From NCBI GenBank assembly GCA_021324165.1, contig JAJPJR010000003.1, positions 1-54,587 on the forward strand: a DNA stretch of 54,587 nucleotides, read 5' to 3'. Origin of the DNA: Armatimonadota bacterium. Lineage in GTDB: Bacteria; Armatimonadota; Fimbriimonadia; Fimbriimonadales; ATM1. Within the stretch, counting starts at the first letter, position 1, and each line of letters begins with the position of its first letter. The position numbers and the translations under genes were made by a program. Shown piece after piece: positions 26,683 to 50,210 of the stretch. The notes beneath the pieces were generated by a model, which did no database searches, had not been told where the DNA came from, and worked only from the letters and a program-made list of their open reading frames with translations.

Positions 26683-26700
26683 CTGGCGGAGAGGGTGGGA
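26683..26700 (-). repeat. Island att site, left (tRNA-Ser 3' fragment)
   Basis: 18 bp (CTGGCGGAGAGGGTGGGA on the plus strand) identical to 50118-50135, covering the acceptor and part of the T-arm of tRNA-Ser. The similarity continues imperfectly for 3 nt. Confidence 0.85.
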
Positions 26701-26830: not shown

Positions 26831-26848
26831 TTGCAGCAAAAGCTGCAA
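26831..26848 (+). repeat. Hairpin directly before integrase ATG
   Basis: Perfect 7-bp inverted repeat TTGCAGC / GCTGCAA with an AAAA loop, ending at the base before the ATG at 26849. It could block translation from that ATG or be an operator. Confidence 0.45.
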
Positions 26849-28258: not shown

Positions 28259-29134
28259 CTACATTGCGACTAGCTCGCCTGTCAGCCGAGGTTCGGGCTC
28301 CGTGCTGTCATCGTGATGACCGTCGCCGAGAATCCAATCGACCGCCTTTTGAGCACCCGAAGCCGCCTTTATGATGAGGCTCGAATCGGAGTTGAGCGCT
28401 TTGGTCAGCCAGGAATTGATATAGCTGGTTGTCGGTGAAAGATTCTCTATGCCAGCCTCGCTGCAAAGGAACGCTGCCCCGATTTCAGCCAAAATTTCTT
28501 CCCGACCGTATTCTTCCGTTCCAAAACAGATTCCGGTTTCGAGGGAGATTCTCCCGAGTCGAGACGGATGAGAAGTCGAATGGACTAGCTCGTGGTACAG
28601 CGTGCCGTAGAACCCTTGGGGAGTCTCAAAGTCTCGCATGTGAGGAACCACGACTGCATCCCGAACTGGGTAGTACGCCGCCTGTTCGGTGCCGAAGTGG
28701 AGCTTGGGGCAGTCCTTGTAACCAGCAACGATTCGCTCTGCAGCTTCCAAACCGCAAGCCTGACTTTGAACCATTGAGCCCTTCGGCAAGTCAAGCCCGC
28801 TGCACTGTTCGACGTTGAATACCGTGAAAGCTCGACAAATCAACCTCTCCCTTCCAGTTGTCTCGTCCTCGACATCTGACCAGAGCATGACGGTTGAACC
28901 CCGCTCCCCTTTGGCGACTGAGCCGCCGAGTGACTTCGCCTGATTGAAAGTCAGCCAACGGTGGTCGCTGAACTCGCTGAGCGAGAGCATAAGGCGATTG
29001 ATTCCCCGATAAGGGCGGTTGGTCACTGCATTGCAGGGTCGGCGGACTGCCCAAGGCTTGCGCCACGGCAAAACATCGCCAGCCTCGATAGCCTTGATGA
29101 CCTGTTCGGTGATTCTTTGGTAGGTGCTCTTCAC
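28259..29134 (-). CDS. ArdC-like antirestriction protein
   Basis: ArdC-type proteins protect incoming DNA from restriction; the family has an N-terminal ssDNA-binding domain and a C-terminal metallopeptidase-like domain. The 291-aa protein starts YQRITEQVIKAIEAGDVLPW and NAVTNRPYRGINRLMLSLS, typical of the N-terminal domain. HELVHSTSH around residue 180 plus EEILAEIGAAFL form the zincin motif. The start is GTG, preceded by AGGTAGGG. The TTCCTCAA motif lies 27 nt upstream. Confidence 0.85.
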   Translation of the reverse strand: MKSTYQRITEQVIKAIEAGDVLPWRKPWAVRRPCNAVTNRPYRGINRLMLSLSEFSDHRWLTFNQAKSLGGSVAKGERGSTVMLWSDVEDETTGRERLICRAFTVFNVEQCSGLDLPKGSMVQSQACGLEAAERIVAGYKDCPKLHFGTEQAAYYPVRDAVVVPHMRDFETPQGFYGTLYHELVHSTSHPSRLGRISLETGICFGTEEYGREEILAEIGAAFLCSEAGIENLSPTTSYINSWLTKALNSDSSLIIKAASGAQKAVDWILGDGHHDDSTEPEPRLTGELVAM

Positions 29135-30335: not shown

Positions 30336-30533
30336 ATGCTGGATTTGAGACAGGTCTACTCGCTGACCGACTTCCTGAGAAACCACAAAGAGCACGTTGC
30401 TCGACTGTCGGAATCCAAGGCACCGGTCGTCTTGACGGTCAAAGGAAAGGCGGCGTTGGTGCTCCAAGACGCCGAAGGTTATCAAGAGCTTCTGGAGCGA
30501 CTTGACCGGGCAGAGGGTAGAGGGCAGGAATGA
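30336..30533 (+). CDS. Phd/YefM-family antitoxin-like protein (no toxin)
   Basis: 65-aa protein with a Phd/YefM-type fold: YSLTDFLRNHKEHVARLSES, then APVVLTVKGKAALVLQDAEGY. Such antitoxins bind DNA and autoregulate. No toxin gene is adjacent; the stop overlaps the hsdM ATG by 4 nt (ATGA). It therefore heads the restriction-modification operon and may act as its repressor. TATGAT at 30315-30320 lies upstream, and an imperfect TTGAG...CTCAA repeat sits at about 30268-30293. Confidence 0.8.
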   Translation: MLDLRQVYSLTDFLRNHKEHVARLSESKAPVVLTVKGKAALVLQDAEGYQELLERLDRAEGRGQE

Positions 30534-32500
30534 ACGCACAGACGCTGGGCTGGATTACGAACTTCATTTGGGGCATCGCCGACGATGTGCTCCGGGACGT
30601 GTATGTCCGGGGCAAATATCGTGATGTCATTCTGCCGATGGTCGTCATCAGACGCCTCGACGCTGTTCTGGAGCCGACCAAGCAAGCCGTCCTCGACATG
30701 AAGAAGAACCTGGATGCAGCCGGGGTCGCCAACCAGGAAGTCGCGCTTCGACAAGCCGCTGGTCAGGCATTCTACAATGCATCCCCATTCACTCTCCGAG
30801 ACCTCAAGTCCAGGGCGACCGCTCAGCGCTTGAAGGACGATTTCGAGGCATACCTCGACGGTTTCTCCTCGAACGTTCAGGAGATTCTCGACAAGTTCAA
30901 GTTCCGCAACCAGATTCCGACCTTGGTCGAAGCCGACATCCTCGGCAGCCTCATCGAGAAGTTCCTCGACCGCTCCATCAACCTCTCCCCACAGCCAGTG
31001 CTCGACACGGATGGCAAGGAGAAGATTCCTGCCCTCGACAACCATGCGATGGGCACGATGTTCGAGGAGCTTATCCGCCGATTCAACGAGGAAAACAACG
31101 AGGAAGCAGGCGAGCACTTCACCCCTCGTGATGTTGTGAAGCTCATGGCGGAACTCATCTTCCGACCCATCTCAGACCAGATTGAATCGGGCACGTACCT
31201 GGTCTATGACGCCGCTTGCGGAACAGGTGGAATGCTGACCGTTGCTGAAGAGCGCCTCAAGGAACTGGCTGAAGAGCAGGGCAAAGCGGTGTCCATCCAC
31301 CTCTACGGTCAAGAGGTCAACCCGGAAACCTACGCCATCACCAAAGCCGACCTCTTGCTCAAAGGCGAAGGCGAGGAAGCCGAAAACTTCCGACTTGGCT
31401 CGACGCTCTCGCAAGATGGATTCCCGTCCCGAGAATTCGACTTCATGCTATCCAATCCGCCGTATGGCAAGAGTTGGAAGACCGACCTGGAGCGGATGGG
31501 CGGAAGGGGCGAACTCACCGACCAGCGCTTCATCATCGAGCATGCCGGTGACCCCGAGTTCAGCCTCATCACACGTTCCAGCGACGGGCAGTTGATGTTC
31601 CTAGTCAACAAGCTCGCCAAGATGAAGCACAACACGCCGCTGGGAAGCCGCATCGCCGAAGTCCACAACGGCAGTTCGCTTTTCACTGGGGATGCCGGGC
31701 AGGGTGAATCCAATATCCGCCGATGGATTTTGGAGAACGATTGGCTCGAAGCCATCATTGCCCTCCCGCTGAACATGTTCTACAACACGGGCATCGCCAC
31801 ATACATCTGGGTGCTGACCAACCGCAAGCCAGCGCACCGACGTGGCAAAGTCCAACTCATCGACGCCACCCAGTGGTTCAAACCGCTCCGCAAGAACCTT
31901 GGCAAGAAGAACTGCGAGCTTGCGCCAGAGGACATCCAGAAGGTCATGGACGCCTTCCTCGAATTCTCCGAATCGGAGCAGTCCAAGCTCTTCCCTAATG
32001 AGGCATTCGGATACTGGAAGGTCGTCGTCGAGCGTCCTCTGCGCATCAAGGGAATCGACCCGACCAGAGCCTACTCCTCCAAGGAAATCAAGGAGTTGAA
32101 GGCGACGAACGGAGTGGACGAGTCTGCTCCACCAGTAATCAGGAAGATTCACAAGAACGCCGCACCCGACCCAATGCACGGGCTTTTTGAGGTGGTCATC
32201 GGTGGCAAAACGTGCGTCGTCGAATACGAGCCGGACACTGACCTTCGAGACACCGAAAACGTGCCGCTCCTTGAAGACGGAGGCATCGAAGCATTCATCA
32301 AGCGTGAGGTCTTGCCCCACGTTCCCGACGCATGGGTGGATGACGACAAGACCCAGATTGGCTACGAAATCAGCTTCACCCGCTACTTCTACAAGCCCAA
32401 ACCGATGCGGACGCTGGAGGAGATTCGGCGGGACATCGAGGCGCTGGAGAAGGAGACTGAAGGGCTACTCGATGAGGTGTTGGTTGAGGTGGAGCAATGA
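30530..32500 (+). CDS. hsdM: Type I restriction-modification methyltransferase subunit HsdM
   Basis: N6-adenine methyltransferase subunit that, with HsdS, methylates the host copy of the target. The 656-aa protein has the HsdM N-terminal helical domain (about 8-150), SAM motif I (YDAACGTGGML near residue 226) and the catalytic NPPYGKSW near 310. The C-terminal part is longer than in classical 500-520 aa HsdM and ends in a helical tail for subunit contact. It is coupled upstream to the Phd-like gene and downstream to the 257-aa unknown. Confidence 0.95.
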   Translation: MNAQTLGWITNFIWGIADDVLRDVYVRGKYRDVILPMVVIRRLDAVLEPTKQAVLDMKKNLDAAGVANQEVALRQAAGQAFYNASPFTLRDLKSRATAQRLKDDFEAYLDGFSSNVQEILDKFKFRNQIPTLVEADILGSLIEKFLDRSINLSPQPVLDTDGKEKIPALDNHAMGTMFEELIRRFNEENNEEAGEHFTPRDVVKLMAELIFRPISDQIESGTYLVYDAACGTGGMLTVAEERLKELAEEQGKAVSIHLYGQEVNPETYAITKADLLLKGEGEEAENFRLGSTLSQDGFPSREFDFMLSNPPYGKSWKTDLERMGGRGELTDQRFIIEHAGDPEFSLITRSSDGQLMFLVNKLAKMKHNTPLGSRIAEVHNGSSLFTGDAGQGESNIRRWILENDWLEAIIALPLNMFYNTGIATYIWVLTNRKPAHRRGKVQLIDATQWFKPLRKNLGKKNCELAPEDIQKVMDAFLEFSESEQSKLFPNEAFGYWKVVVERPLRIKGIDPTRAYSSKEIKELKATNGVDESAPPVIRKIHKNAAPDPMHGLFEVVIGGKTCVVEYEPDTDLRDTENVPLLEDGGIEAFIKREVLPHVPDAWVDDDKTQIGYEISFTRYFYKPKPMRTLEEIRRDIEALEKETEGLLDEVLVEVEQ

Positions 32501-33304: not shown

Positions 33305-35116
33305 ATGAGCACCCAGCGCTACTCCGTCACGCCTCACCCCATCGAGACCCTTCTGACCTGGGTCAAGTCGGGTGAAATCGCCATCCCCGAGATTCAGCGC
33401 CCGTTCGTCTGGGACGCCAGCAAGGTTCGAAATCTGCTCGACTCGCTGTACCTCGGCTATCCGGTCGGCTACCTCATCGCTTGGCGCAACCCGAACATCA
33501 GGCTCAAGGACGGCACGAGCAGCAGTGGCAAGCGCATCCTCATCGACGGGCAGCAGAGGGTCACGGCGCTCATGGCGGCGCTCCTCGGTCAAGAGGTCAT
33601 CACCAAGGATTACGAGACCACGAGAATCCGAATCGCCTTTAATCCTCAAGAAGAGAAGTTCGAGGTTGCCAACCCTGCCATCCGCAAGGACAGCGCCTGG
33701 ATTGACGATGTCGCCAAGGTCTTCGACCCCAGCGCCGACCTCATCGACCTGACGGAGAGCTACGCCGAGAGCAACCCGACTGCAGACCGGAAGAAGGTCG
33801 GCAAGGTGCTTCAGAAGCTCCAGAAAATCATCAACAATCACGTCGGCGTCATCGAACTCGCCGAAGACCTAGACATCGAGACCGTCACCGAAATCTTCAT
33901 TCGGGTCAACTCGGCAGGCGTCACTCTCAGCCAAGCCGACTTCGCTATGTCGAAAATCGCTGCCAACGAAACTTACGGCGGCAACCTGCTTCGCAAAGCC
34001 ATCGACTACTTCTGCCATCTCGCCATCTCTCCCGAGTTCTTCGACAGAATCAGCAAGTTCGACAAAGCGTTCGTCGAGTCTGAGCACTTCGGAAAAATCA
34101 AGTGGCTTAAGGACGCCAACGACGACATCTATGACCCGTCGTACACCGACATGCTCAGGGTGGCGTTCACCTCCGAGTTCCGTCGAGGCAAGCTCCAAGA
34201 CCTGGTGGCGCTGCTCTCAGGGCGAAACTTTGAGACCCGGATTTACGAGGAGGAAATCGCCGAAGCGTCATTCGCGCAACTCAAGAAGGGTGTTCATGCC
34301 TTTGTGAGCCAGACCCACTTCGAGCGCTTCACGATGATAATGCGGTCGGCTGGGTTCATCACCAACCGGCTCATAGGCGGTCAGAACGCCGTCAACTTCG
34401 CTTACATCGTCTATCTTCTCGGTCGGGCGCAGAGCCTGCCTCCGAGCCAAATCGAGGCTGCCGTGAGGCGCTGGTACGTGTTCTCAATTCTGCGAGGACG
34501 CTATTCGGGCAACTTCGAAGCAATGTTTGACATTGACGTGCGCCGCATCGAAACGCACGGGCTCCTGAGCTATCTGTCCACCACCATCGAAGCGGAGATG
34601 TCGGACTCGTATTGGCAGAACCTGCTGCCGCAGGAACTGGAGACCTCCTCAGCGACCAGCCCGCTGTTCCATGCCTACCAAGCCGCCCAGGTGGTGATGC
34701 AGGACAAAGGCTTCCTGAGCAGCCACATCCCGGTCGATGCGCTTCTGCTGAATCGCTCGGACGCCCATCACGTCTATCCGAAGGACTTGCTTAAGAAGCA
34801 GGGGCTTCAGCGAGGGCAATACAACCAGCTTGCCAACTTCGTTCTGGCTCAGAGCGAAATCAACATCGCCATCGGCAACAAGGCTCCCGAGGTCTATTTC
34901 GCTGAACTGAGAGCCCAGGTCAACGGCGCAGGGGCGAAGTACGGCGGCATTACCGACGAGGCGACTCTCAGAGCCAACTTCCGCATGCACTGCATCCCGG
35001 ACTCAATGCTCGACGGCGACGTGCCAAGTTACGAAGACTTCCTCGGTGCTCGTCGGTCGTTGATGGCGGCGAAGCTGCGAACATACTTTGAGAGACTCGG
35101 AGAGGTCAAGACCTGA
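33305..35116 (+). CDS. DUF262/GmrSD-like restriction protein
   Basis: The 603-aa protein has an N-terminal DUF262 (ParB/Srx-like) domain with [11 protein letters not shown] and the hallmark [10 protein letters not shown] near residue 80. A C-terminal HNH/DUF1524-like nuclease segment carries [11 protein letters not shown] near 488 and [20 protein letters not shown]. GmrSD-family enzymes are type IV systems that cut modified (for example glucosylated) phage DNA. Many DUF262 proteins also sit in type I operons. The stop overlaps the KwaA-like ATG (TGATG). Confidence 0.85.
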
Positions 35117-35694
35117 TGGCTCGAAATGCTCCATCTGCATCCCGCTTTATCCGCCCCCTTTACGCTTTGGGGAGCTTGGCTCCCTTGTTCATTGTCCTTC
35201 TAATCAAAGGCGAGCCTAGGGTTGAGGGCAAGCCCATTGTCCCAGTCTTGGGCTACTACATTGCAGTCATTGCTCTGGCAGTTCTGCCGATAGCGGCGAT
35301 TGCTTTTCGATGGCGTCAAGCCAATGCGAACCACGACCACTCGGTCATCCGTATCGCTCGACCTGCAGACAGCAAAGACCACTTGCTGGTCTATCTGCTC
35401 ACCGTCCTAACCCCACTTTACAGTGCCTCCTTTGGCTCTGTCAGAGATTGGTATGCCAGCGTCTTCATTCTGGTCGTCATCGTCTTCCTGTTCTGCCACT
35501 TCGACCTCTATCACATGAACCTCTTGTTCGCTCTGCGCGGCTATCGAACATTTGTGGTTCAGGGTCATGGCGACAGCCCGCTCGATTGCCGGAAGCCGGT
35601 CATCGTCCTAAGCAAGCGAACCTACCTCACTGAGATGGACTTGCACTGCGTGAGACTGTCGAACACCGTCTTTATCGAGAGAGAAGAACCATGA
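35116..35694 (+). CDS. kwaA: KwaA-like membrane protein of Kiwa anti-phage system
   Basis: KwaA is the membrane subunit of Kiwa and is thought to sense phage-induced membrane events. The 192-aa protein has four predicted helices: LGSLAPLFIVLLIKG, YYIAVIALAVLPIAAIAF, LLVYLLTVLTPLYSASF and FILVVIVFLFCHFDLYHM. A cytoplasmic-looking tail follows. Size, four-helix topology and an overlapping DUF4868-like partner fit KwaA. Sequence alone does not prove it; another membrane sensor is possible. Confidence 0.7.
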   Translation: MARNAPSASRFIRPLYALGSLAPLFIVLLIKGEPRVEGKPIVPVLGYYIAVIALAVLPIAAIAFRWRQANANHDHSVIRIARPADSKDHLLVYLLTVLTPLYSASFGSVRDWYASVFILVVIVFLFCHFDLYHMNLLFALRGYRTFVVQGHGDSPLDCRKPVIVLSKRTYLTEMDLHCVRLSNTVFIEREEP

Positions 35695-36572
35695 AGACCA
35701 TCACGTTCGGAGTCCTGGTCAAGCACCAAGGCGAGTTGAAGGCATTCCTAGTCCCGATTGACCAAGCGGGGCAGAGTCACATCGAGCAAATGTTCGCAAC
35801 GACTCATGGCAAGGTTGCGGTTGCGCAAGTGGAAGACTTCCAGCTTGCTGAAACATATTCGGAGAATCGGTGCGCCAAGTTGGGGTTGGCTGACCCGCTT
35901 GCTGAAACGATAAAGGGGCTGTACGATGCGACGAGTGTCGAGGTTAATCCCGATGTCCTCGAAGATATGGAGCACGTCGTCGCTTACTTCGGGGTGATTG
36001 AAGAAACGAACTCTCCCAGGAACCTCGGCATTCGACAAGCCCGAACGTTCAAGAGCTTGAGAACAAAGCCGGTGTGGACTTTCGCCGAAGGGCAGTTGAC
36101 GGAGGACAAACGCCCGAAGGTCACCCTCTCAGACAGTTGGGAATTGCTCACGGAGGGGGAGGAACTCTTTATCGTGAGTGCGACGGCATTGGAGCGAATC
36201 TGCGACCTGGCACCTGCGATTCGGAAATCCGCCCTCGATGGATTGGAGGAAATCTCTCCAAGCATTCCATTCCTCAACATGGAGCCTCTCAAATCCCGTG
36301 TTGAAAGCTATACGAGGTCTGCACGCATCGTCGCTGACCTTCGAAAGCGAGGTGACCTTGCTGTGGTTTCGGAAGGTGCGTTGAAGAGCGAGAGCGACAA
36401 ACAGGGCATCGAATACGAAATCATTGACAGCCAATACATGGTCAAAGTAGGCAGTGAAGAAGGATTGCTCATGCTGCTCGATAGGCGTCGCTATGCTGAC
36501 CCGCTCGTTGCCGTGAACCCAGACATTTATGAAGCAGATAGTCGGCACAAGGTTGGGAAGGCAAAGTCTTGA
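35691..36572 (+). CDS. kwaB: KwaB-like DUF4868 effector of Kiwa
   Basis: KwaB is the cytoplasmic DNA-binding effector partner of KwaA. The 293-aa protein begins with a beta-rich half (KTITFGVLVKHQGELKAFLV). The C-terminal half (from about 150) has the DUF4868 pattern: FIVSATALERICDLAPAIRK, LKSRVESYTRSARIVADLRK, then LMLLDRRRYADPLV close to the end. The ATG overlaps the KwaA-like stop by 4 nt. It is followed after 43 nt by hsdS. The assignment rests on domain pattern plus pairing. Confidence 0.7.
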   Translation: MKTITFGVLVKHQGELKAFLVPIDQAGQSHIEQMFATTHGKVAVAQVEDFQLAETYSENRCAKLGLADPLAETIKGLYDATSVEVNPDVLEDMEHVVAYFGVIEETNSPRNLGIRQARTFKSLRTKPVWTFAEGQLTEDKRPKVTLSDSWELLTEGEELFIVSATALERICDLAPAIRKSALDGLEEISPSIPFLNMEPLKSRVESYTRSARIVADLRKRGDLAVVSEGALKSESDKQGIEYEIIDSQYMVKVGSEEGLLMLLDRRRYADPLVAVNPDIYEADSRHKVGKAKS

Positions 36573-36615: not shown

Positions 36616-37938
36616 GTGACCACAGTTTTGAAGCCCTATTCGTCGTACGCCCCCTCGCCGGTGCCATGGCTCGACGACGTTCCCGCTGAGTGGTCGGCGA
36701 TTCGGCTCGACCGATTGTTTCGATACCGAAGCGAGGAGCCTCTAGAGGGCGATGCTCGGGTCACAGGTTACTTGGATGGTCGAGTGACCCTGCGTTCAAA
36801 CGTCGCCGGTCAAAAGATTAAGGGTGTTGTCCACGAGACGGGTTGGCAGCGCATTCACGTAGGTGACTTCGCCATCAGCGGGATGAATGCACACCTCGGT
36901 GGGATGGGGGTGTCAGATTCCGAAGGCAAGTGCTCGCCCATTTACCTTGTCCTTGAACCAAGACCCGGAACGAATGCTCACTTCGTTTCCCTAGCTGTTC
37001 GGCATGCTGCCCATTTCGGTGCTATCAAGGCTCTCGTCCAGACGATTCGCTTTAACTCAGCCGACATGAAGCGGGCAGATTTGAAGTCAATCTACGTACC
37101 GCTTCCTCCACCCGAAGAGCAGGCGCAGATTGTGCGCTTCATCCGCCACCTCGACCAGCGGGTGAATCGGCTCATCAAGACCAAGCGGCGGCTCATCGAA
37201 CTGCTGAACGAGCAGAAGCAAGCCATCATCCACCGTGCCGTCACCCGAGGGCTCGACCCCACCGTCCCCCTCAAACCCTCCGGCATCGACTGGCTAGGGG
37301 ACATTCCAGCGCATTGGACTGTTGCTCGAATAAAGCACCTTGTTCGCATGCGAAGTGGCGATGGAATCACGGCTGAGCGCATCGAGGAAACGGGCGAGTT
37401 TCCTGTATTTGGGGGAAATGGTCTCCGAGGGTTCACAGACGCCTTCACGCACGTTGGAGACTACATTCTCATTGGAAGGCAGGGAGCCTTATGCGGAAAC
37501 ATCCAATATGCGTCGGGCAAGTTTTGGGCATCCGAGCACGCAGTTGTCTGCACCCCAATAAAGCCCTTTGACCAGAAGTGGCTCGGTGAACTTCTGAAAG
37601 TCATGAACCTGAACCAATATTCGATTTCAGCGGCGCAACCTGGGCTTGCTGTTGAGCGAATCAAGAGTCTGCAGCTTCCATTGCCACCCATCGCTGAACA
37701 AGAGCAGATATCCTTGTGGTTCCTAGAGCAAACCGCTGACCTGGAACTCGTTCTTGCTAAGGCAAGGTCTGAAATTGACCTCATCCGGGAGTACCGCACC
37801 CGCCTCGTCGCCGATGTGGTGACTGGTCAACTCGATGTCCGCCACCTCGACTTGCCCGAGGTCGAAGAATCGCTCATCGAAGCCATCGACACAGAATCCG
37901 ATTCAGAAGAAGACGAGCCGGACGAGGGTGTCGAGTGA
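36616..37938 (+). CDS. hsdS: Type I restriction specificity subunit HsdS (first copy)
   Basis: HsdS recognises the bipartite DNA target. The 440-aa protein has two target-recognition domains separated by conserved helices (LPPPEEQAQIVRFIRHLDQR and LIELLNEQKQAIIHRAVTRG near 165-210; LPPIAEQEQISLWFLEQTAD and IREYRTRLVADVVTGQLDVR near the end). The second domain begins PSGIDWLGDIPAHW. The start is GTG after GAGGTGAAGG. A Glu/Asp-rich tail ends the protein and overlaps the second hsdS by 4 nt. Confidence 0.92.
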   Translation: MTTVLKPYSSYAPSPVPWLDDVPAEWSAIRLDRLFRYRSEEPLEGDARVTGYLDGRVTLRSNVAGQKIKGVVHETGWQRIHVGDFAISGMNAHLGGMGVSDSEGKCSPIYLVLEPRPGTNAHFVSLAVRHAAHFGAIKALVQTIRFNSADMKRADLKSIYVPLPPPEEQAQIVRFIRHLDQRVNRLIKTKRRLIELLNEQKQAIIHRAVTRGLDPTVPLKPSGIDWLGDIPAHWTVARIKHLVRMRSGDGITAERIEETGEFPVFGGNGLRGFTDAFTHVGDYILIGRQGALCGNIQYASGKFWASEHAVVCTPIKPFDQKWLGELLKVMNLNQYSISAAQPGLAVERIKSLQLPLPPIAEQEQISLWFLEQTADLELVLAKARSEIDLIREYRTRLVADVVTGQLDVRHLDLPEVEESLIEAIDTESDSEEDEPDEGVE

Positions 37939-39269
37939 GCCGGAGCACCAGTTGTCAAGAAAGACTTGACAACTGGCGAAGGCAAGCGGATGAACCAGAA
38001 CCTTCTGTGGTGGTCGCCGCTGTAAATCGCTGTGCTCCTTTACCGCCGAAGTCACAGTACGACACGCTTCCCTGGCTGGAATCCTGCCCTGTTCACTGGC
38101 GCATCGTTCGCCCGAAGACCATCCTGCGGCGCATGCAGCGACCGGTAAGACTCTGCGACGAGGTGGTGACTTGCTTTCGAGACGGCGAGGTCACTCTGCG
38201 CCATTCCAAGAAGCCGCTCGGCATCATGGAGTCTCTGCAGGAGGTCGGCTATCAGGGAGTCCGAGAGGGTGACCTGGTTATTCACGACCTCGACGCCTAT
38301 GCCGGAGCCATCGGGGTCTCCGATTCGAATGGCAAGACCACTCCTGCCTGTGCTGTCTGCCAAACCCTTCCTGGAGCCGATGCCCACTACTTGGCGCTCC
38401 TGTTTCGAGAACTGGCTCGGAACGGCTACCTCTTTGCGGCTGCTCGTGGCGTTCGAGAGCGGGTCGCCGACCTGCTCTTCGGCAACTTCGCCTCATTGAA
38501 GATTCCCCTGCCACCGCTCCATGAGCAGCTTGCCATCGTGCGGCATGTGGCGGAGTTCGACGAGAAGATGAACCGCCTGGTGAGCGCCAAAGAACAGATG
38601 CTGGCGCTCTTGGACGAACAAGAGCAGGCACTGCTGCGGCAAGCAGTGGAGCGAGCGGAAAACGGTGAGACTATGAGACTGCCGTTCACACGATGCTTCT
38701 CGACTCGCATCGACAACCGAGGCACCACCCCCAAGCGAGGCGACTTTGGACGGCGTTTGGTGACTTCGAAAAACGTTCGGCAAGGCTATCTGGACTATGA
38801 GGTCTCGGTGGATTTCGTCTCAGAGTCTCACGAATTTGAGAATGCCCGTCAGCCCGAGGTGGGAGACCTGCTGATGACGACCGAGGCTCCGATGGGGCAC
38901 TTCGCCCTGGTTGCCCGACCGGACATCGCCATCGCCCAACGAGTGGTTGCATTCCGACTCCGTCTGGACGTAGTCGTTCCCGAGTATCTGCTGCTGGTCT
39001 GTCGTTCGAGAGTGTTTCAGGATGAGCTTCGACGGTTGGCGACCGGTGCCGGTGCGGTTGGGATTCGCACGAGCCGCCTCTCGCAGCCTAGAGTTGCCTT
39101 GCCTTCGTTGGAGAGCCAGCGCACGGCCGTGCGCTGGTTCGACGACCAAGTTCGTCCTGTCCTTCGTGCAAAGAGGAAACTGGCGAAGGAGTTGGCTCTG
39201 CTGAGGGAATACCGTGCGAGGCTGGTTTCGGAAGTGGTGACGGGACAGATTAGCTGTTCCCAAAAGTGA
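37935..39269 (+). CDS. Second HsdS specificity subunit
   Basis: The 444-aa protein again has two target-recognition domains and the central helix (LPPLHEQLAIVRHVAEFDEK, then QEQALLRQAVERAENG). The ending LREYRARLVSEVVTGQI matches the first HsdS ending. Its first domain partly resembles that of the upstream copy (GDLVIHDLDAYAGAIGVSDS versus GDFAISGMNAHLGGMGVSDS), while the second domain is different. It begins with GTG inside the stop of the first copy. Two HsdS proteins with one HsdM and one HsdR could give alternative specificities. Confidence 0.88.
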   Translation: MSRSTSCQERLDNWRRQADEPEPSVVVAAVNRCAPLPPKSQYDTLPWLESCPVHWRIVRPKTILRRMQRPVRLCDEVVTCFRDGEVTLRHSKKPLGIMESLQEVGYQGVREGDLVIHDLDAYAGAIGVSDSNGKTTPACAVCQTLPGADAHYLALLFRELARNGYLFAAARGVRERVADLLFGNFASLKIPLPPLHEQLAIVRHVAEFDEKMNRLVSAKEQMLALLDEQEQALLRQAVERAENGETMRLPFTRCFSTRIDNRGTTPKRGDFGRRLVTSKNVRQGYLDYEVSVDFVSESHEFENARQPEVGDLLMTTEAPMGHFALVARPDIAIAQRVVAFRLRLDVVVPEYLLLVCRSRVFQDELRRLATGAGAVGIRTSRLSQPRVALPSLESQRTAVRWFDDQVRPVLRAKRKLAKELALLREYRARLVSEVVTGQISCSQK

Positions 39270-40354: not shown

Positions 40355-40816
40355 GTGCGTGCCAGTCAGGACATCCGAATCGAGCCGGGTGCAGTCTCAG
40401 CAGAGTCTCTGCAGAGGCTGACCAAGCTTTGCCGAGAGGGAGAGATTGCCTCACTGGTCGGTCGAAACGGCGAGAAAGTCGCCCTGCCTCCAGAGTTGCG
40501 CAGGGTTCTTTCGTTCGTTTTGGGAGCCTTTGAAAAGCAGCAGTCGGTCTGCCTGATTCCAGAGGACGAGCCGTTCACCACCCAGGCGGCAGCGAACTTT
40601 CTGGGAATGTCTCGCCCGTACCTCATGAGGCTGCTCGATGCCGGAGAGATTCCCTTCCACCGTGTCGGGACTCACAGAAGAGTGCTGTATCGGGACTTGG
40701 TTGCATTCCAGGAACATCGGAGCGCCGTCCGCCAAGAAGCTCTCTCGAAGATGACTCAGGAACTGGACGAGGCAGGTGTCTATGACCGGGTTGCTCATAT
40801 GGAGCGAGGCTCATGA
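40355..40816 (+). CDS. Excisionase/VapB-type HTH antitoxin-like protein (no toxin)
   Basis: 153-aa protein with KVALPPELRRVLSFVL and an excisionase-type winged HTH (FTTQAAANFLGMSRPYLMRL, then IPFHRVGTHRRVLYRDLVAF) at about 70-125. This layout is typical of antitoxins normally followed by a PIN-domain toxin. No PIN gene is present; the stop overlaps the hsdR ATG by 4 nt. The GTG start at 40355 is abutted by GGAGG, so the exact start is uncertain. It may regulate hsdR expression. Confidence 0.78.
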   Translation: MRASQDIRIEPGAVSAESLQRLTKLCREGEIASLVGRNGEKVALPPELRRVLSFVLGAFEKQQSVCLIPEDEPFTTQAAANFLGMSRPYLMRLLDAGEIPFHRVGTHRRVLYRDLVAFQEHRSAVRQEALSKMTQELDEAGVYDRVAHMERGS

Positions 40817-43800
40817 GCACGGACACCAGCGAAAAGGGACTCGAACTGCTCATCATTCGCAGCCTCACTGGGCTGACCAACGAGCAAATTCTCAAGCCGG
40901 TCGCTCCAGGCATTGCCGAGAACCCGACTGGATACGGCGGCGCTGGCTACGTTCTAGGACGCTCGCAAGACTACAGTAGGGAATATGCCGTTGACCTCAC
41001 TTACCTCCTCCAGTTCATCGCGCAGACTCAACCGAAGATTTTCGCCCAGCTTGACATTGGCACCGATGGAATAAAACGAACGCAGTTTCTAACCCGGCTT
41101 CAGGGAGAAATCGCCAAGCGAGGCATCGTCGATGTCCTTCGTAAAGGTGTTTCTCATCAGGCAGCCCACGTGGAACTGTTCTACGGAACGCCCTCTCCAG
41201 GCAACCAGAAGGCAAAGGAGCGATGGGATTCCAACATCTTCAGCATCACTCGCCAACTGTGTTACAGCAAGGATGAAACCCAGCTTGCGCTCGACCTGTG
41301 CCTCTTCATCAATGGGCTGCCCATTGCCACATTTGAACTCAAGAACAGCCTGACCAAGCAGACCGTTGAGGACGCCGTCCAGCAATACAAGCGAGACCGG
41401 GACAGTCGGGAACTGCTCTTTCACTTCGCTCGATGCCTGGTTCACTTCGCCGTCGATGATGCTGAGGTTCGTTTCTGCACCCATCTTCGGGACAAGGGGT
41501 CTTGGTTCCTTCCGTTCAACAAGGGTTGGAACAATGGGGCAGGCAACCCGCCAAACCCCAACGGGCTCAAAACGGACTATCTCTGGAAGGAGATTCTCAC
41601 GAAAGAAGGTCTCACCGACATCATCGAAAACTATGCCGAGCGGGTAGAGGAGAAAGACCCGAAGACAGGCAAAGTCAAACGCCTGCTCATCTTCCCCAGG
41701 TTTCACCAGCGGGATGTTGTGCGGAAGCTCCTCGCCGACACTCGAACCCACGGCTCAGGCAAGCGTTACCTGATTCAGCACTCGGCAGGAAGCGGCAAGT
41801 CGAACTCGATTGCGTGGCTTGCTCACCAGCTTGTGGGGCTGGAAAAGGACTCCGTACCGGTCTTTGACTCCGTCATCGTCGTGACTGACCGGGTTATCCT
41901 CGACAAGCAAATCCGGGACACCATCAAGCAGTTCGCCCAAGTCGGTTCGGTGGTGGGGCACGCAGAGCGTTCGGGACAGCTTAAGGAATTCCTCAAGAAC
42001 GGAAAGAAAATCATTATCACCACCGTTCAGAAGTTTCCGTTCATCTTGGACGACATCGGCTCTGCGAACAAGGACAGCACGTTCGCTATCCTCATCGACG
42101 AAGCGCATTCAAGCCAAGGCGGTCAGACCGCAGCTAAGATGAACATTGCTCTCTCGGGCACCTCAGCCGAGGACGATGAAGAGGACGCGGAAGACCTAAT
42201 CAACCGCATCATGGCGGCTCGAAAGATGCTTCCGAATGCGTCTTACTTTGCCTTCACTGCGACTCCCAAGAACAAGACCCTTGAGGTCTTTGGAGAGCCG
42301 TACCCCGAGGGTGATGTGGTCAAGCATCGACCATTTCACAGCTACACGATGAAGCAGGCGATTCAGGAGGGATTCATCCTGGATGTGCTCAAGAGCTACA
42401 CGCCGGTCAACTCCTATTACAACCTCATAAAGACGGTTGAAGACGACCCTGAATTTGATTCGAAGAAGGCTCAGCGGAAGCTCCGCAAGTATGTCGAGTC
42501 ACATACCCACGCCATTCGGGAGAAAAGCGAAATCATGGTTGACCACTTCCACGACCATGTGATTGCCAAGCAAAAGATTGGCGGTCAGGCGAGGGCAATG
42601 GTCATCACCGGAAGCATCAAGCGAGCCATCGACTACTTCCACGCTTTCCAGGACTACCTGAAGGAGCGCAAGAGCCCGTACAAAGCCATCGTTGCCTTCT
42701 CTGGAGAGCACGAATACGGCGGTCAGAAGGTGACTGAGGCGTCATTGGACGGTTTTGCCAGCAACAAGATTGCCGAGATGATACAGGAAGACCCTTACCG
42801 CTTCCTCATCTGCGCTGACAAGTTTCAGACCGGGTACGACGAGCCACTGCTCCACACGATGTACGTTGACAAGCCTCTCTCGGGAATCAAGGCTGTCCAG
42901 ACCCTTTCACGCCTGAACCGAGCACACCCCAAGAAGCACGACACCTTCGTGCTCGACTTCGTGAATGACATTGACATCATTCAGATGGCGTTTGACGATT
43001 ACTACCGCACGACTGTTCTGGCTCGGGAGACTGACCCGAACAAGCTGCATGACCTCAAAGCTGACCTCGATGCCGCTCAGGTCTACAGCGATGCTGACGT
43101 TCGGCAGCTTGTCGAGCTTTATCTGGCTGGTGCTGACCGAGACGCGCTTGACCCGATTCTCGATGGCTGCGTTGCAACGTACCTGGAGTCTCTCGACGAG
43201 GATGGTCAGGTTGAGTTCAAGGGCAAAGCCAAGGCGTTTGTACGGACATACGGGTTCCTAGCTTCGGTGCTCACCTACAGCATCGCTTCCTGGGAACGGC
43301 TGTCCATCTTCCTGAATTTCCTCATTCCAAAGCTGCCAGCCCCTAAAGAAGAGGACTTGTCAAAGGGAATCCTGGAGTCCATCGACATGGACAGTTACCG
43401 AGTCGAGGTTCGGTCGGCTCTATCCATATCGCTTACGGACGAGGATTCCGAGATTGAGCCCGTGCCAACGGCAGGCGGAGGTCATCCTCCTGAACCCGAA
43501 CTTGACCGACTCAGCAACATCCTCAAGTCCTTCAATGACCAATTTGGGAATATCGAGTGGAAAGATGGAGACAAGATAAAGGAGGTCATCACGCAGGAAA
43601 TTCCTGCGAAGGTGGCGGCGGACAAGGCGTATCAGAACGCCATTGCCAACTCTGACAAGCAGAACGCCCGCATCGAGCACGACAAGGCTCTGCAGCGGGT
43701 GCTCGTCGAGCTACTCACCGACCACACGGAGTTGTTCAAGCAGTTCTCGGACAACCCCGCATTCAAGAAATGGCTGTCCGACACGAACTTCAACTCGACC

Positions 43801-43818
43801 TACACAGACGGGCGCTGA
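40813..43818 (+). CDS. hsdR: Type I restriction enzyme R subunit HsdR
   Basis: ATP-dependent translocase and nuclease subunit. The 1001-aa protein has the N-terminal PD-(D/E)xK nuclease region with LDLCLFINGLPIATFELKN (E-x-K near residue 173). The SF2 motor carries Walker A HSAGSGKSNS near 323 and IDEAHSSQGG near 428. Motifs ASYFAFTATPKNKTLEVFG, ADKFQTGYDEP and QTLSRLNRAHP follow, and the C-terminus is helical. It appears intact. It is translationally coupled to the HTH protein and ends the defence operon. Confidence 0.95.
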   Translation: MSTDTSEKGLELLIIRSLTGLTNEQILKPVAPGIAENPTGYGGAGYVLGRSQDYSREYAVDLTYLLQFIAQTQPKIFAQLDIGTDGIKRTQFLTRLQGEIAKRGIVDVLRKGVSHQAAHVELFYGTPSPGNQKAKERWDSNIFSITRQLCYSKDETQLALDLCLFINGLPIATFELKNSLTKQTVEDAVQQYKRDRDSRELLFHFARCLVHFAVDDAEVRFCTHLRDKGSWFLPFNKGWNNGAGNPPNPNGLKTDYLWKEILTKEGLTDIIENYAERVEEKDPKTGKVKRLLIFPRFHQRDVVRKLLADTRTHGSGKRYLIQHSAGSGKSNSIAWLAHQLVGLEKDSVPVFDSVIVVTDRVILDKQIRDTIKQFAQVGSVVGHAERSGQLKEFLKNGKKIIITTVQKFPFILDDIGSANKDSTFAILIDEAHSSQGGQTAAKMNIALSGTSAEDDEEDAEDLINRIMAARKMLPNASYFAFTATPKNKTLEVFGEPYPEGDVVKHRPFHSYTMKQAIQEGFILDVLKSYTPVNSYYNLIKTVEDDPEFDSKKAQRKLRKYVESHTHAIREKSEIMVDHFHDHVIAKQKIGGQARAMVITGSIKRAIDYFHAFQDYLKERKSPYKAIVAFSGEHEYGGQKVTEASLDGFASNKIAEMIQEDPYRFLICADKFQTGYDEPLLHTMYVDKPLSGIKAVQTLSRLNRAHPKKHDTFVLDFVNDIDIIQMAFDDYYRTTVLARETDPNKLHDLKADLDAAQVYSDADVRQLVELYLAGADRDALDPILDGCVATYLESLDEDGQVEFKGKAKAFVRTYGFLASVLTYSIASWERLSIFLNFLIPKLPAPKEEDLSKGILESIDMDSYRVEVRSALSISLTDEDSEIEPVPTAGGGHPPEPELDRLSNILKSFNDQFGNIEWKDGDKIKEVITQEIPAKVAADKAYQNAIANSDKQNARIEHDKALQRVLVELLTDHTELFKQFSDNPAFKKWLSDTNFNSTYTDGR

Positions 43819-44268: not shown

Positions 44269-45084
44269 ATGAAGACCACAATCTCCACATATCACGAACT
44301 TCAGCGAGCAGTCGAGCACTTTGCTTCAACGGCTAGCAACATCATCCTCGTTGGCGAGCCGGGCTTAGCCAAGACCTCCATCGTCAAGAAAGCGGTCAAT
44401 GGCTCCGGTAAACACCTCGACGGAAACCTCTCGGCATTCGAGTTCTACAAGCTCCTGTACCAGCACCAGGATGAACTCTTTGTTCTCGACGATGTCGATT
44501 CGCTCTACGGCGACCGAGCCTTTATCCGGCTGCTCAAACAAGCCTGCCAGACGACGCCAGTCAAAACCGTGTCCTGGCGCACCAGGCACAGCGATATCGG
44601 CGATGAGGGTGTGCCAAGCGAGTTCGAGACGACCAGCCGCTTTGTCATCATTGCAAATGATTGGCGCACACTGAACCGGAACGTTGCGGCAATCGAAGAC
44701 CGGGGCATCCTCATCCACTTTGCGCCAAGCCCGGAGGATATCCACAAGTATGTCGAGACCTGGTTCGACGACCAAGAGGTTCTTGACTTCGTTTGGAGAT
44801 GGCTCCCATATGTCCGCTCAGTCAGCGCCCGACTCTACATCACGGCGTCGCAGTTGAGGGAAGGCAATCTGGATTGGCAGCGCACAGTCCTCGATACAAT
44901 GGGCATCGACAGCAACAATCGGCTCCTGGTGGACTTGCAGGCGCTCGACATCCCAACCGAGGCGAAGGTTGAGGAGTATGCGAGGCAAACCGGACGAAGC
45001 AGAGCAACCTACTTTCGTGACCTCAACCGGCTGATGGAGCGCCGCAATCGAGACCGCTCAACAGATGGAGAGTCAAAGTCGTGA
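44269..45084 (+). CDS. AAA-type ATPase of replication-like module
   Basis: The 271-aa protein has Walker A GEPGLAKTSIVKK near residue 29 and Walker B LFVLDDVDSLYG near 70, with a sensor-like IIANDWRTLNRN. The C-terminus carries a helix-turn-helix (VEEYARQTGRSRATYFRDLN). It resembles plasmid and phage ATPases that act on DNA; its partner is uncertain. Its stop overlaps the polymerase-like gene (GTGA), so they form a two-gene unit. AAGGG is at the ATG. The TTCCTCAA motif precedes it. Confidence 0.72.
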   Translation: MKTTISTYHELQRAVEHFASTASNIILVGEPGLAKTSIVKKAVNGSGKHLDGNLSAFEFYKLLYQHQDELFVLDDVDSLYGDRAFIRLLKQACQTTPVKTVSWRTRHSDIGDEGVPSEFETTSRFVIIANDWRTLNRNVAAIEDRGILIHFAPSPEDIHKYVETWFDDQEVLDFVWRWLPYVRSVSARLYITASQLREGNLDWQRTVLDTMGIDSNNRLLVDLQALDIPTEAKVEEYARQTGRSRATYFRDLNRLMERRNRDRSTDGESKS

Positions 45085-46451
45085 GCGTCGTCCGGTATTG
45101 CTCGCAATGGTTTCGGGATGAGATTTTGAGACTGTATCCGGCTCTCGATTCAAAGCCGGGACGATGGGAGTTCCTCCAGTATCTGATTTACTGCCAGCAC
45201 TTCGATTTTGCGACCGATAATCTTGTCGCCTCAGCAAAGGTTGTGTCGGAGTGGATGGACAAGGAGAAATCGTTCCATCAGAACAACTTCAGCGTTCGAG
45301 ATGTCGCCGAGGACTTCTCCGAGCATGTCTTTCGAGTGGCTCTCTCAGGATATGTGTATGAGCCTTCCAGGGGTAGGTGCGAATCTCGAATAGTGCTCAG
45401 CAGGTTTCCCAAGGAGGTCGAGGGGCTTTGGGAAAAGGAACGCCGTTCCCGGCGCACACCACGGGTTGAGTTTGTCACCGGCAAAAGGGCGGTGAACCCA
45501 AAGCGCAGCTTCACACTCACGTCAGCACCGGAAGCATCCCGGTTGATGGCTGAGTACATGAACGCATTGCCGACCAACCGATTCTCCAAGGCAGTTTCCG
45601 CTCATTGGGAGGAGGCAGCCGAGCTTGCCGCAAGCTTGGGTGAGATGCACACACCCGAGGGACGACAGAGTGCAGTCCTTGCCCAACTTTTGACCAGCCC
45701 CAAGCCTCTCTACAAGACCACAGAGAATAGCGCCCGAATCTTCTCGGCAACTGACACAAGCATCGCTAACCTGAAGCAATGTGTGCGGGATGTCCTGTGC
45801 CAAGACTGGCTCAAGTGCGACCTGGCGTCAGCCCAGTACAGCATCAATTACCGTGTCTGGGGAATGGAAGAGGCGGGTGTCCCGTTTGTGGCTTCGCCAT
45901 TTGACACTCTCATTGCAGACCTTCGGCTGACGCCGGATGCACGACCTGCGCTCAAGAAAATTATCTATTCCATTTGCTTTGGCATGAGCACTCGCCGAGA
46001 CCCGTCTCGTGAGAACGTCTGCGACCTGGCGAATGCAATCACCCCGAATCTCTGGTACCGCATGAAAAGCCATTCGCTCGTCAAGGGACTACTGGAAACG
46101 AGACAGGCGCAGTTCAAGCAGATTCGTGAAACTGGGTTTGCGCTCGACGCCTGGAAGAACGCCATCCTGTTGGAGCCGGAGCCTCACGATGGACTTCCTG
46201 GCGATGACGTGAGAAGTGTTCTGGCACAAGTAGCGCAATCCTATGAGCAAAGACTGATGTTTGAGGTCTACCGACTAGCGATTCAAAATCCTGGGAAGCA
46301 TGGGTTTAGCATCATGGTAAATGTTTATGATGGGCTCTACATTTGCGTCCACGACGCTTCCGACGCAGAGGACTGGAAGAGACGAATTTCTAGCGCCGTA
46401 GAGACTGAGGCTTCTACTCTCGGAATCAAGACTCAGCTTGAGTGGAATTAG
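45081..46451 (+). CDS. Compact family-A-type DNA polymerase-like protein
   Basis: 456-aa protein with palm/fingers motifs of family A DNA polymerases. Motif A is CDLASAQYSINYRVWG (Asp at residue 247). Motif B, RPALKKIIYSICFGMS, aligns base for base with the family R-x3-K-x6-Y/F-G-M-S pattern. Motif C is VNVYDGLYICV (YD in place of HD). No 3'-5' or 5'-3' exonuclease domain is visible, and the N-terminal 240 residues are unassigned. Coupled to the ATPase, it may be the island's replication polymerase. GTG start. Confidence 0.68.
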   Translation: MSVVRYCSQWFRDEILRLYPALDSKPGRWEFLQYLIYCQHFDFATDNLVASAKVVSEWMDKEKSFHQNNFSVRDVAEDFSEHVFRVALSGYVYEPSRGRCESRIVLSRFPKEVEGLWEKERRSRRTPRVEFVTGKRAVNPKRSFTLTSAPEASRLMAEYMNALPTNRFSKAVSAHWEEAAELAASLGEMHTPEGRQSAVLAQLLTSPKPLYKTTENSARIFSATDTSIANLKQCVRDVLCQDWLKCDLASAQYSINYRVWGMEEAGVPFVASPFDTLIADLRLTPDARPALKKIIYSICFGMSTRRDPSRENVCDLANAITPNLWYRMKSHSLVKGLLETRQAQFKQIRETGFALDAWKNAILLEPEPHDGLPGDDVRSVLAQVAQSYEQRLMFEVYRLAIQNPGKHGFSIMVNVYDGLYICVHDASDAEDWKRRISSAVETEASTLGIKTQLEWN

Positions 46452-46679: not shown

Positions 46680-47630
46680 TCAGAGCCCTACGAGACCACT
46701 CAGGTTCTGGTCGAAGAGAGTGGCTTCCCTCAAGTAATCAGAGATGGCGTTCGACTTGTGTCGAGAGTGCTTGGCAATGACTGCTTGAGCGACCGACGCA
46801 GCGAAACCATCGGTGATGACTCCGGCTCGTCCTGAATGCCCACCGTAATCTTTCGGGTCGAGCCCCAAGAGCAGCGCAAACTCCTTGAAGATGGCGCAAA
46901 CAGTCTGGTCGGACAGCCGTGTCATCCCAAGGCGTCCGCCTCTCGTTATCGGGCGAAATAGCGCTCCTTCGGAGAGTTCAGCCGCCGAAATCCAATTCCT
47001 CAGCGCCCTGACGGGACATGTGTCCGCCCGGTTACCAGCTTTGATAGCAACCTTCACCCCTGAGCCCTCTTGGTCAGTCTTGCTCCGGCTCAACATGAGG
47101 ACGACGCCTTCCGGGGAAAACGTCAGGTCAGATAAATCAAGCCCCGTTACCTCCGAGCGTCGAAGTGCCCCTGCGTACGAAACGAGGATGATGGCGGTAT
47201 CACGTACGCCTTTCATATCTGACCGCATCAGGGAGAGCCCCTCACGGAAATGCCTCGCACGGATTGGCGACTTCTGGGTTCTTGACATACCCTTTGCCCT
47301 TCGAACCCCAGCCATCGTCGAATGGACGATTTCAGCAGCGATGGGTGATGGCACACCGGCTGTCTTGTGAGCCACCGAGATTGCAGCGAGTTTTCGTTGG
47401 ATGGAGGACGGTCGATGAGTTTCAGCGAGCTTTGTGATGAAGAGCGCCACTGTTGATGACTCAGCGGGAAGTGCTCCAAGTCCATGCGAGACGCAGAACT
47501 TCTCGAACAGGCTCCAATCGGATTGATATGCCTTCAACGTGGCGGGTGCTCTCGATTGGCGAGCGTAGTCAATCGCATCGACCACGAGGCGCTGGATTTC
47601 GGTGGTTTGGACAGGTTGGATTTCGTTCAT
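46680..47630 (-). CDS. Second tyrosine recombinase (XerC/D-like)
   Basis: Site-specific recombinase of about 316 aa with a SAM-like N-terminal domain (APATLKAYQSDWSLFEKFCV). The catalytic set is GALRRSEVTGL (Arg), SRSKTDQEGSG (Lys), GGHSGRAGVI (H-x-x-R), AKHSRHKS, and Tyr in SDYLREAT. The ATG at 47630 was chosen; a TTG at 47660 is possible and lies 24 nt from the TTCCTCAA-type motif. It is unlike the integrase at the left end, so it could resolve dimers, mobilise cassettes or be a relic of another insertion. Confidence 0.88.
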   Translation of the reverse strand: MNEIQPVQTTEIQRLVVDAIDYARQSRAPATLKAYQSDWSLFEKFCVSHGLGALPAESSTVALFITKLAETHRPSSIQRKLAAISVAHKTAGVPSPIAAEIVHSTMAGVRRAKGMSRTQKSPIRARHFREGLSLMRSDMKGVRDTAIILVSYAGALRRSEVTGLDLSDLTFSPEGVVLMLSRSKTDQEGSGVKVAIKAGNRADTCPVRALRNWISAAELSEGALFRPITRGGRLGMTRLSDQTVCAIFKEFALLLGLDPKDYGGHSGRAGVITDGFAASVAQAVIAKHSRHKSNAISDYLREATLFDQNLSGLVGL

Positions 47631-47684
47631 TTGAAGCCATCGAGAACTTTCAATTCTCAATGACTACTTTGCGCAGCTTTTGAC

Positions 47685-47719: not shown

Positions 47720-47731
47720 GTTCTGTTGCTC

Positions 47732-47746
47732 GGCTCGTATCGAGCC
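47732..47746 (+). repeat. Palindrome directly before DUF2293 ATG
   Basis: GGCTCG TAT CGAGCC, a perfect 6-bp inverted repeat ending at the base before the ATG at 47747. Candidate operator or translation-blocking hairpin. Confidence 0.45.
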
Positions 47747-48118
47747 ATGTCAACGAACTTCGAAGAACCACAACACACTCATCATCAGCGGAACCAACTC
47801 GAAGCCGAGATTCTGCGCCTATACCCGAGCATCCCAGAGTTAGACCTGCGAGCTACTCTCGACCACACCCTGGAGGACGGTTGCCAGCGGGTCGGAACGA
47901 ACACAAATCTGCCTCTAGCCGACCGAGCGAGGCGTGCTGTTTGTGCCCACGTTCGACACAACCACACACTCTACGATGAGCTTCTGGCTGGGTACTTAGC
48001 CAACGACGAGCCGGAGGACGCTCGTGTGAGTGCTCGATTTGCCGTCGAGCGCAGAATTCGTAGCACTCTGCGGGTCTGGTCTAAGCCTAAGAAACAGCGC
48101 AAGAACCTGCGTCGATGA
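47747..48118 (+). CDS. DUF2293 domain protein
   Basis: Protein of about 123 aa containing DUF2293: ILRLYPSIPELDLRATLDHT, LPLADRARRAVCAHVRHNHT, YDELLAGY, then a basic tail (RVWSKPKKQRKNLRR). Function unknown. I chose the ATG at 47747; the in-frame codon at 47726 lies upstream of the palindrome. It is divergent from the second recombinase. Confidence 0.75.
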   Translation: MSTNFEEPQHTHHQRNQLEAEILRLYPSIPELDLRATLDHTLEDGCQRVGTNTNLPLADRARRAVCAHVRHNHTLYDELLAGYLANDEPEDARVSARFAVERRIRSTLRVWSKPKKQRKNLRR

Positions 48119-48282: not shown

Positions 48283-48942
48283 TTAGTTGATGTCGTCAAA
48301 CAAGTCGGCGAGCCTCTTGCATGCAGCTTTGAGACGGGACTGAACACGGTCAACCGAGATTCCAAGGATGCTTGCAGCTTCTCCATAGCTGAACTGCAGA
48401 ATCCTAACGAGTTCAAAGACCGCAGCATCGAGTTCAGGAAGCTGAGCCAGTGACCACCTTTCCAGAGCTTCTCCCTCGATGTCGTCGAGGGACGAGCACT
48501 GGCAGGCTTGACAACCGTCCTCGAAATCGCCGAAGCAAATCCTCTTGAACGAGAGGAACCCTGCAGCCTGGTGTTCTTCTTCGGTGCCAACTCCGCTTCG
48601 AACACGATTCCGAGCGCCCGTGACATGCGAAGGGCACGAAACGTGAGATTCAAGGTCGATGCGAGTCTTCAGGAAGTTCTCTGAGCGCATGACCATGTAC
48701 CGCCCTTGCTCACGAGTGGTCATCGACCTATCGAGCCTCTGGAGTGCAGTTTGAGCGCCGAGGAGAAGTGTCTGCAGGGCGTCGTCGAAAGTGAGCCACT
48801 CCTCCCGATTCGCATACTTAGATGCAAGTCGCTTGAGGTTCGGCAAGATGCCTCCGACTCGGGGGTCGAGGTCAGGATAGGTCGGGAGTGGTGAATCAGT
48901 CGTCGAGTCCCGTCTGGCTCGATATGCGCATGGATTTTCCAT
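48283..48942 (-). CDS. Sigma-70-like (ECF-type) factor
   Basis: The 219-aa protein has a region-2-like N-terminal half (KYANREEWLTFDDALQTLLL, RLDRSMTTREQGRYMVMRSE). A clear region-4 helix-turn-helix is at the C-terminus (LPELDAAVFELVRILQFSYG, EAASILGISVDRVQSRLKAA). A Cys-rich linker (FGDFEDGCQACQC) lies between. TTCCTCAA-type motif 27 nt upstream and a 9-bp hairpin covering the ATG suggest tight control. It could drive an island-specific promoter class; a non-sigma DNA-binding role cannot be excluded. Confidence 0.7.
   Translation of the reverse strand: MENPCAYRARRDSTTDSPLPTYPDLDPRVGGILPNLKRLASKYANREEWLTFDDALQTLLLGAQTALQRLDRSMTTREQGRYMVMRSENFLKTRIDLESHVSCPSHVTGARNRVRSGVGTEEEHQAAGFLSFKRICFGDFEDGCQACQCSSLDDIEGEALERWSLAQLPELDAAVFELVRILQFSYGEAASILGISVDRVQSRLKAACKRLADLFDDIN

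Positions 48943-50117: not shown

Positions 50118-50210
<93 letters not shown>

Follow-up and report, generated by a model that had tools for sequence, protein, structure and literature searches.

A TV-Pol-like family-A polymerase without exonuclease domains on a tRNA-integrated defence element of Armatimonadota, with a probable role in element replication

The window analyzed here comprises 54,587 nucleotides of contig JAJPJR010000003.1 from an Armatimonadota bacterium. Its gene at 45081-46451 (plus strand, GTG start) encodes a 456-residue polymerase, and we regard it as nearly certain, from fold and family, that this is a divergent family-A enzyme lacking an exonuclease. There is similarly little doubt that the locus lies in an integrative element, which is 23.4 kb long and occupies a tRNA-Ser gene. 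The reading we favor is that the polymerase is of the TV-Pol kind and probably serves the replication of its own element.

The polymerase motifs can be traced along the sequence: the motif 1 arginine (R219), the motif A aspartate (D247), motif B ([RK]288-x3-K292-x3-Y296-x3-F300-G301, with residues 288-303 reading RPALKKIIYSICFGMS), the pair Q386-x2-E389, and motif C (D417-G418, within VYDGLY at 415-420). D247, the motif B stretch, and VYDGLY lie at the places given in the initial annotation. Across 14 aligned homologues, residues G134, Y211, R219, R236, D247, K292, G301, Q386, E389, D417, and G418 are invariant. Homologues were found in other genomes within this order and phylum and on a Deinococcus plasmid (26.6% identity). 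On that plasmid (L002), the polymerase sits between two similar small proteins (11069-11416 and 13729-14064) that appear HNH-like by eye.

As a single-sequence query, the window polymerase had no match in Pfam, PHROGs, or the PDB, and it is also missed by NCBIfam; three of the 14 homologues match PF00476 on their own, at best with 8e-5. A seven-sequence profile matched Taq Pol I (E = 7e-5), and the 14-sequence profile matched human Pol nu (3.9e-7), Taq (1.4e-6), and Klenow (3e-4). Profile searches also found Pol theta and, weakly, T7 DNA polymerase. Alignment with the host’s own PolA using hhalign gave a probability of 96 and E = 2e-9, in a register that pairs R219 with the arginine of GRLSS. 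We take the Klenow counterparts to be D705 for D247, E710 for Q252, K758 for K292, F762 for Y296, D882 for D417, and E883 for G418.

The AlphaFold2 model of the polymerase (pLDDT 85.2, pTM 0.82) supports this assignment. Using Foldseek against the PDB, it matches KlenTaq, Klenow, Bst Pol I, and Pol theta at probability 1.00 and E of about 5e-8. Because whole-chain TM-scores against family-A polymerases reach only about 0.4, the relation covers the palm and fingers rather than the whole chain. In the model, R219 lies in a hairpin with strands at 211-213 and 220-222, and helices 166-186 and 193-202 were compared with the two-helix antiparallel thumb of TV-Pol. No exonuclease domain is present in the sequence or the model, nor was there a Pfam nuclease match. 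The initial annotation had proposed family-A motifs A, B, and C and a lack of exonuclease domains; the profiles, hhalign, conserved residues, and modeled fold bear out the motifs, and the sequence and model agree with the lack of exonucleases. An unrelated fold was looked for and Pol I-type polymerases were found; a loss of catalytic residues in homologues was likewise sought, and both aspartates were retained in all 14 sequences.

The enzyme is not an ordinary PolA. In the phylogenetic tree, its family separates from PolA as a distinct clade with 100/100 support, and this separation together with the profile scores led us to reject PolA membership. The host PolA is encoded by a separate gene (G000:C50). 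The tree of the family does not track host families, and many of its inner branches are weak. The in-depth search covered Armatimonadota genomes and plasmid, phage, and IMG/VR collections, with gene calls in relatives being longest-ORF choices. Polymerase queries had no match on phage and viral contigs, and hence this is not a phage gene as far as these collections show. Downstream of the gene, no hairpin or structure signal exceeded that of shuffled sequences.

The nearest described relatives are the TV-Pols. Iyer, Abhiman, and Aravind (2008, PMC2579912) described these as family-A polymerases without exonucleases that occur on mobile elements encoding integrases, close to restriction-modification (RM) operons, and counted phage Ma-LMM01 as a carrier. 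When the island profile was run on the first 50 kb of this Microcystis phage, MAP_030 was the top match (E = 0.001); the PolA profile did not find it in the same 50 kb. MAP_030 adjoins transposase genes and has the R-x-Y, QxxE, and HDG signatures of the island polymerases. On the basis of these motifs and neighbors, we take it to be the TV-Pol named in the paper, the text of which gives no locus tag in the sections used. Searching with MAP_030 led to plasmid proteins of Polaromonas and Calothrix. Aligned by hhalign, the island family and a profile of MAP_030 plus two Polaromonas proteins gave E = 1.2e-15 and probability 98.6, compared with 2e-9 for host PolA. In a pooled hmmsearch, the Polaromonas proteins reached 60-67 bits and the Calothrix protein 17.6, with no more than 24.5 for host PolA and only 9.9 for MAP_030. 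The TV-Pol-like genes are located on Polaromonas plasmids of 7 kb and 11 kb (L119 37-2497, L117 2287-3792); on pW9NP1, a RepA_C initiator gene follows 10 bp after such a gene. One of the Polaromonas genes carries the annotation ‘Clp protease N-terminal domain-containing protein’, which is probably misleading.

Judged from motifs and profiles, we file the window enzyme as TV-Pol-like. It has a family-A palm with two catalytic aspartates (D247 and D417, in a register set by hhalign and hmmsearch), the invariant beta-hairpin arginine before the palm, no nuclease domain, and the profile kinship described above. The RxxxK of the fingers occurs in the relaxed form [RK]xxxK, with K292 invariant and Lys more often than Arg at the first position. 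Two further features, a fused or neighboring D5 helicase and an all-helical N-terminal domain, were not found, the N-terminus being alpha/beta. Standalone TV-Pols are described, and these two features mark subsets rather than the whole family (PMC2579912).

The borders of the element are defined by 18-bp att repeats (CTGGCGGAGAGGGTGGGA) at 26683-26700 and 50118-50135. The repeat is the 3' end of tRNA-Ser(CGA) (50119-50210, minus strand), which the right copy overlaps, and 0.01 matches would be expected by chance. In a sister genome (G004), both flanking genes adjoin around an intact tRNA-Ser, and G005 agrees. This empty site rejects the window as ordinary chromosome and, with the repeats, upholds the earlier proposal that the polymerase lies on an integrative island. 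A tyrosine recombinase of 424 residues (26831-28105, plus) begins 130 bp inside the left repeat and is probably the element integrase. Towards the other side, a second, different tyrosine recombinase of 326 residues (46680-47660, minus) is convergent with the polymerase; either could integrate the element.

Much of the cargo relates to defence. An ArdC-like antirestriction protein (28259-29134, minus) is followed by a type I RM system with HsdM (30530-32500), HsdS (36616-37938), a second HsdS-like ORF identified by BLAST clustering (37935-39269), and HsdR (40813-43818), all on the plus strand. Between HsdM and HsdS lie a GmrSD_N/HEC-05-like defence protein (33305-35116, plus) and, after it, a Kiwa pair (35116-36572) of KwaA-like (35116-35694, plus) and KwaB-like (35691-36572, plus) proteins. 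The pair is also present in G021 and missing from the otherwise similar operon of G058. Beyond the second recombinase are a DUF2293 protein (47726-48118, plus) and a sigma-70 region-4 protein (48283-48942, minus). The latter is 87% identical in G058 and could drive element genes.

Comparable elements occur elsewhere in the phylum. Direct repeats of tRNA genes bound polymerase loci in nine Armatimonadota genomes, including the window; the repeats span 14-59 bp and eight of the nine loci are 19-33 kb long. Besides the window, the targets are tRNA-Ser in G058 (14 bp) and G021 (17 bp), tRNA-Pro in G031 (49 bp), G013 (46 bp), and G037 (43 bp, the tRNA 5' part), tRNA-Arg in G046 (45 bp) and G045 (59 bp), and tRNA-Ala in the 5.5-kb remnant of G061 (30 and 22 bp). 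The G058 repeat is the weakest of the set, yet its element shares the most genes with that of the window. No convincing repeats were detected at G222, G031b, and G124, and no tRNA lies within the stretches examined of G033, G227, and G129. The polymerase is common to all loci by choice of the loci; the commonest shared gene after it is a tyrosine recombinase, present in most att-bounded loci. Cargo differs across the elements. Type I RM systems are present in six loci, and the other genes include type IIG methylases accompanied by SNF2/PLD helicases, DrmE and MZB proteins of DISARM type, GmrSD, Kiwa, Mrr, and RhuM. The G031 element carries a phage-type pair, a Siphovirus Gp157-like protein beside an AAA_24 ATPase (L085 4146-6374). 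No helicase or SSB-type partner is conserved across the elements. Likewise, BLAST found no conserved small gene adjoining the polymerase, a search that OB folds may escape (PMC10061031). In G021, the polymerase and ATPase genes are disrupted but those for HsdR and HsdM are not, which indicates that a resident element needs no polymerase.

Directly upstream of the polymerase is an AAA-type ATPase of 271 residues with a C-terminal HTH-like tail (44269-45084, plus). It matches phrog_1250 (E = 4e-15), and more than 1000 phage records contain distant relatives, many of them from T4-like or jumbo phages and mostly annotated as hypothetical. The initial annotation had described the two genes as translationally coupled. 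Stop and start do overlap by 4 nt here, but the ATPase adjoins the polymerase only in the window genome (G000), G058, and G021, and copies without polymerase occur in G059, adjoining HsdR, and in an integrase-bearing region of G033. The coupling is therefore local, and a conserved ATPase partnership was rejected.

The roughly 240 N-terminal residues of the polymerase, previously left unassigned, can now be partly described. Residues of about 26-107 (45156-45401, plus) are predicted to be winged-helix-like, an appearance seen in two models; the AlphaFold2 secondary structure is H26-37, E47-51, H52-59, H72-82, E87-89, and E99-107. A PDB fold search with this region gave only weak, non-significant matches, some of them to winged-helix proteins (best E = 0.13). 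One homologue (L026) has a readable HTH at its N-terminus.

Comparison with the G058 element suggests that the polymerase is exchanged. In the two elements, HsdR is 98% identical, HsdM 96%, and the ATPase and second recombinase 90% each; shared genes other than the polymerase are mostly 76-98% identical. In contrast, identity is 50.5% for the polymerase and 37% for the first HsdS. At the DNA level, the two elements drop from 93% to 51% identity near 45205 (codon 41) and are back at 82% near 46700, as a putative exchange in situ of the body of the polymerase would explain. The same pattern has been reported for phage replicative polymerases (PMC11348598). Such a swap fits a replication gene under conflict and is also compatible with a defence gene; given that HsdS is as variable as the polymerase, it also fits a conflict gene.

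By analogy with characterized relatives, the most likely function of the enzyme is to prime and/or extend DNA so that the excised element is replicated. A tyrosine recombinase would excise the element, and either the N-terminal winged-helix-like domain or a partner ATPase may place the enzyme on element DNA. The polymerase would then start and/or extend strands, and the circular element would be copied before re-integration or transfer. A primer-independent start is suggested only by analogy with CCPol-MP. This replication role is proposed because of the fold and motifs, the att-bounded element with its empty site, the recurrence at nine loci with a recombinase in most, a polymerase that stays constant while cargo varies, the TV-Pol kinship, relatives on small plasmids (one beside RepA_C), and the in situ swap. 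Counting against it are the lack of a conserved helicase or SSB-type partner and of downstream DNA structure, the equal variability of HsdS, and the broken polymerase of G021.

Three other explanations were weighed. The polymerase could itself be an anti-phage enzyme, for example by synthesizing DNA upon infection in the manner of defence reverse transcriptases, and hence travel with restriction systems. It is mostly found among defence genes and is diversified like HsdS between two related elements; however, no PADLOC model matches, no conserved effector or partner gene adjoins it, neighboring cargo is unrelated between elements, and TV-Pol-like relatives reside on small plasmids without recognized defence genes, one beside RepA. 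We consider this unlikely. A role in strand completion or repair, whereby the enzyme would close gaps or synthesize the second strand following transfer or recombination instead of starting replication, is rather improbable. That CCPol without MP only extends primers (PMC10061031), that no OB-fold partner is recognized here, and that the initiator gene is separate on one TV-Pol-like plasmid would accord with it, whereas ordinary PolA in the host already serves gap filling and the winged-helix-like N-terminus seen in models may point to site recognition.

We give very little credence to the enzyme being an RNA primase or a single-subunit RNA polymerase. Like T7-type RNA polymerases, the family has no second acidic residue in motif C (HDG or YDG), the position of Klenow E883 is an invariant Gly, and that of E710, the ribose-discriminating residue, is mostly Gln in the family. 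Against this, Y296 keeps an aromatic residue at the Klenow F762 position, as in DNA polymerases, and the significant profile-search matches of the family are all DNA polymerases, with RNA polymerases absent. CCPol, moreover, prefers dNTPs (PMC7581432).

The initial annotation considered a dedicated replication polymerase on a small integrative island unusual. This was overstated, because exonuclease-less family-A polymerases on RM-bearing integrative elements have been described (PMC2579912, PMC7581432, PMC10061031) and the window polymerase is profile-related to members of this kind. TV-Pols (PMC2579912) share with it a length of 400-600 residues, an exonuclease-less palm and fingers with two catalytic aspartates, the hairpin arginine and [RK]xxxK, and a place on mobile elements that also carry integrase and RM genes, and are proposed to be primase-polymerases. 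Here, by contrast, the N-terminal domain is predicted to be alpha/beta and winged-helix-like rather than all-helical, no D5-type helicase was found, and the elements are tRNA-targeted, carry tyrosine recombinases, and reside in Armatimonadota. CCPol, which is considered a TV-Pol, has DNA polymerase activity and together with MP acts as a DNA primase; CCPol-MP both primes and extends DNA (PMC7581432). Related PolA-SSB pairs are found on RM-carrying islands (PMC10061031). Like the window enzyme, CCPol-MP of SCCmec and these pairs combine a mobile-element family-A polymerase with islands that have empty sites and RM cargo (PMC7581432, PMC10061031). They differ in their large serine recombinases acting at rlmH or ssrA, their Bacillota hosts, and their OB-fold partner, which is not recognized here. 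Pipolins are also integrative elements with their own DNA polymerase, but piPolB belongs to family B (PMC7385651) whereas the present enzyme has the family-A fold. Host Pol I (PolA1) shares the palm and fingers fold and motifs, but has HDE in motif C, where the present family has HDG or YDG; the window enzyme also lacks both exonucleases, including the 5'-3' domain. The kind is already known; its lineage, tRNA and tyrosine-recombinase setting, and N-terminal domain are new.

More tentatively, and with considerable doubt, these may be distinct self-synthesizing tRNA-integrating elements, in which one family-A enzyme would join an origin-recognizing winged-helix domain to a primase-polymerase with no separate helicase or SSB. 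They would be regular carriers of defence islands in Armatimonadota and a family-A counterpart of pipolins, with the polymerase and recognition domain exchanged together as a replicon-specificity cassette.

These findings extend the little-studied TV-Pol kind, the biochemistry of which rests on SCCmec CCPol in the cited literature, to a deep bacterial phylum and link it to defence islands integrated at tRNA genes. Within family A, a 2026 survey of polymerases in bacteria names only PolA1, PolA1-like, PolA2, and PolA3 (PMC12926913). As no TV-Pol-like class figures in this survey and the window protein escapes Pfam, PHROGs, and NCBIfam, the number of such elements is probably underestimated. The polymerase provides a marker gene for locating integrative elements that carry defence systems, and its family offers compact enzymes for asking if family-A polymerases start DNA without a primer.
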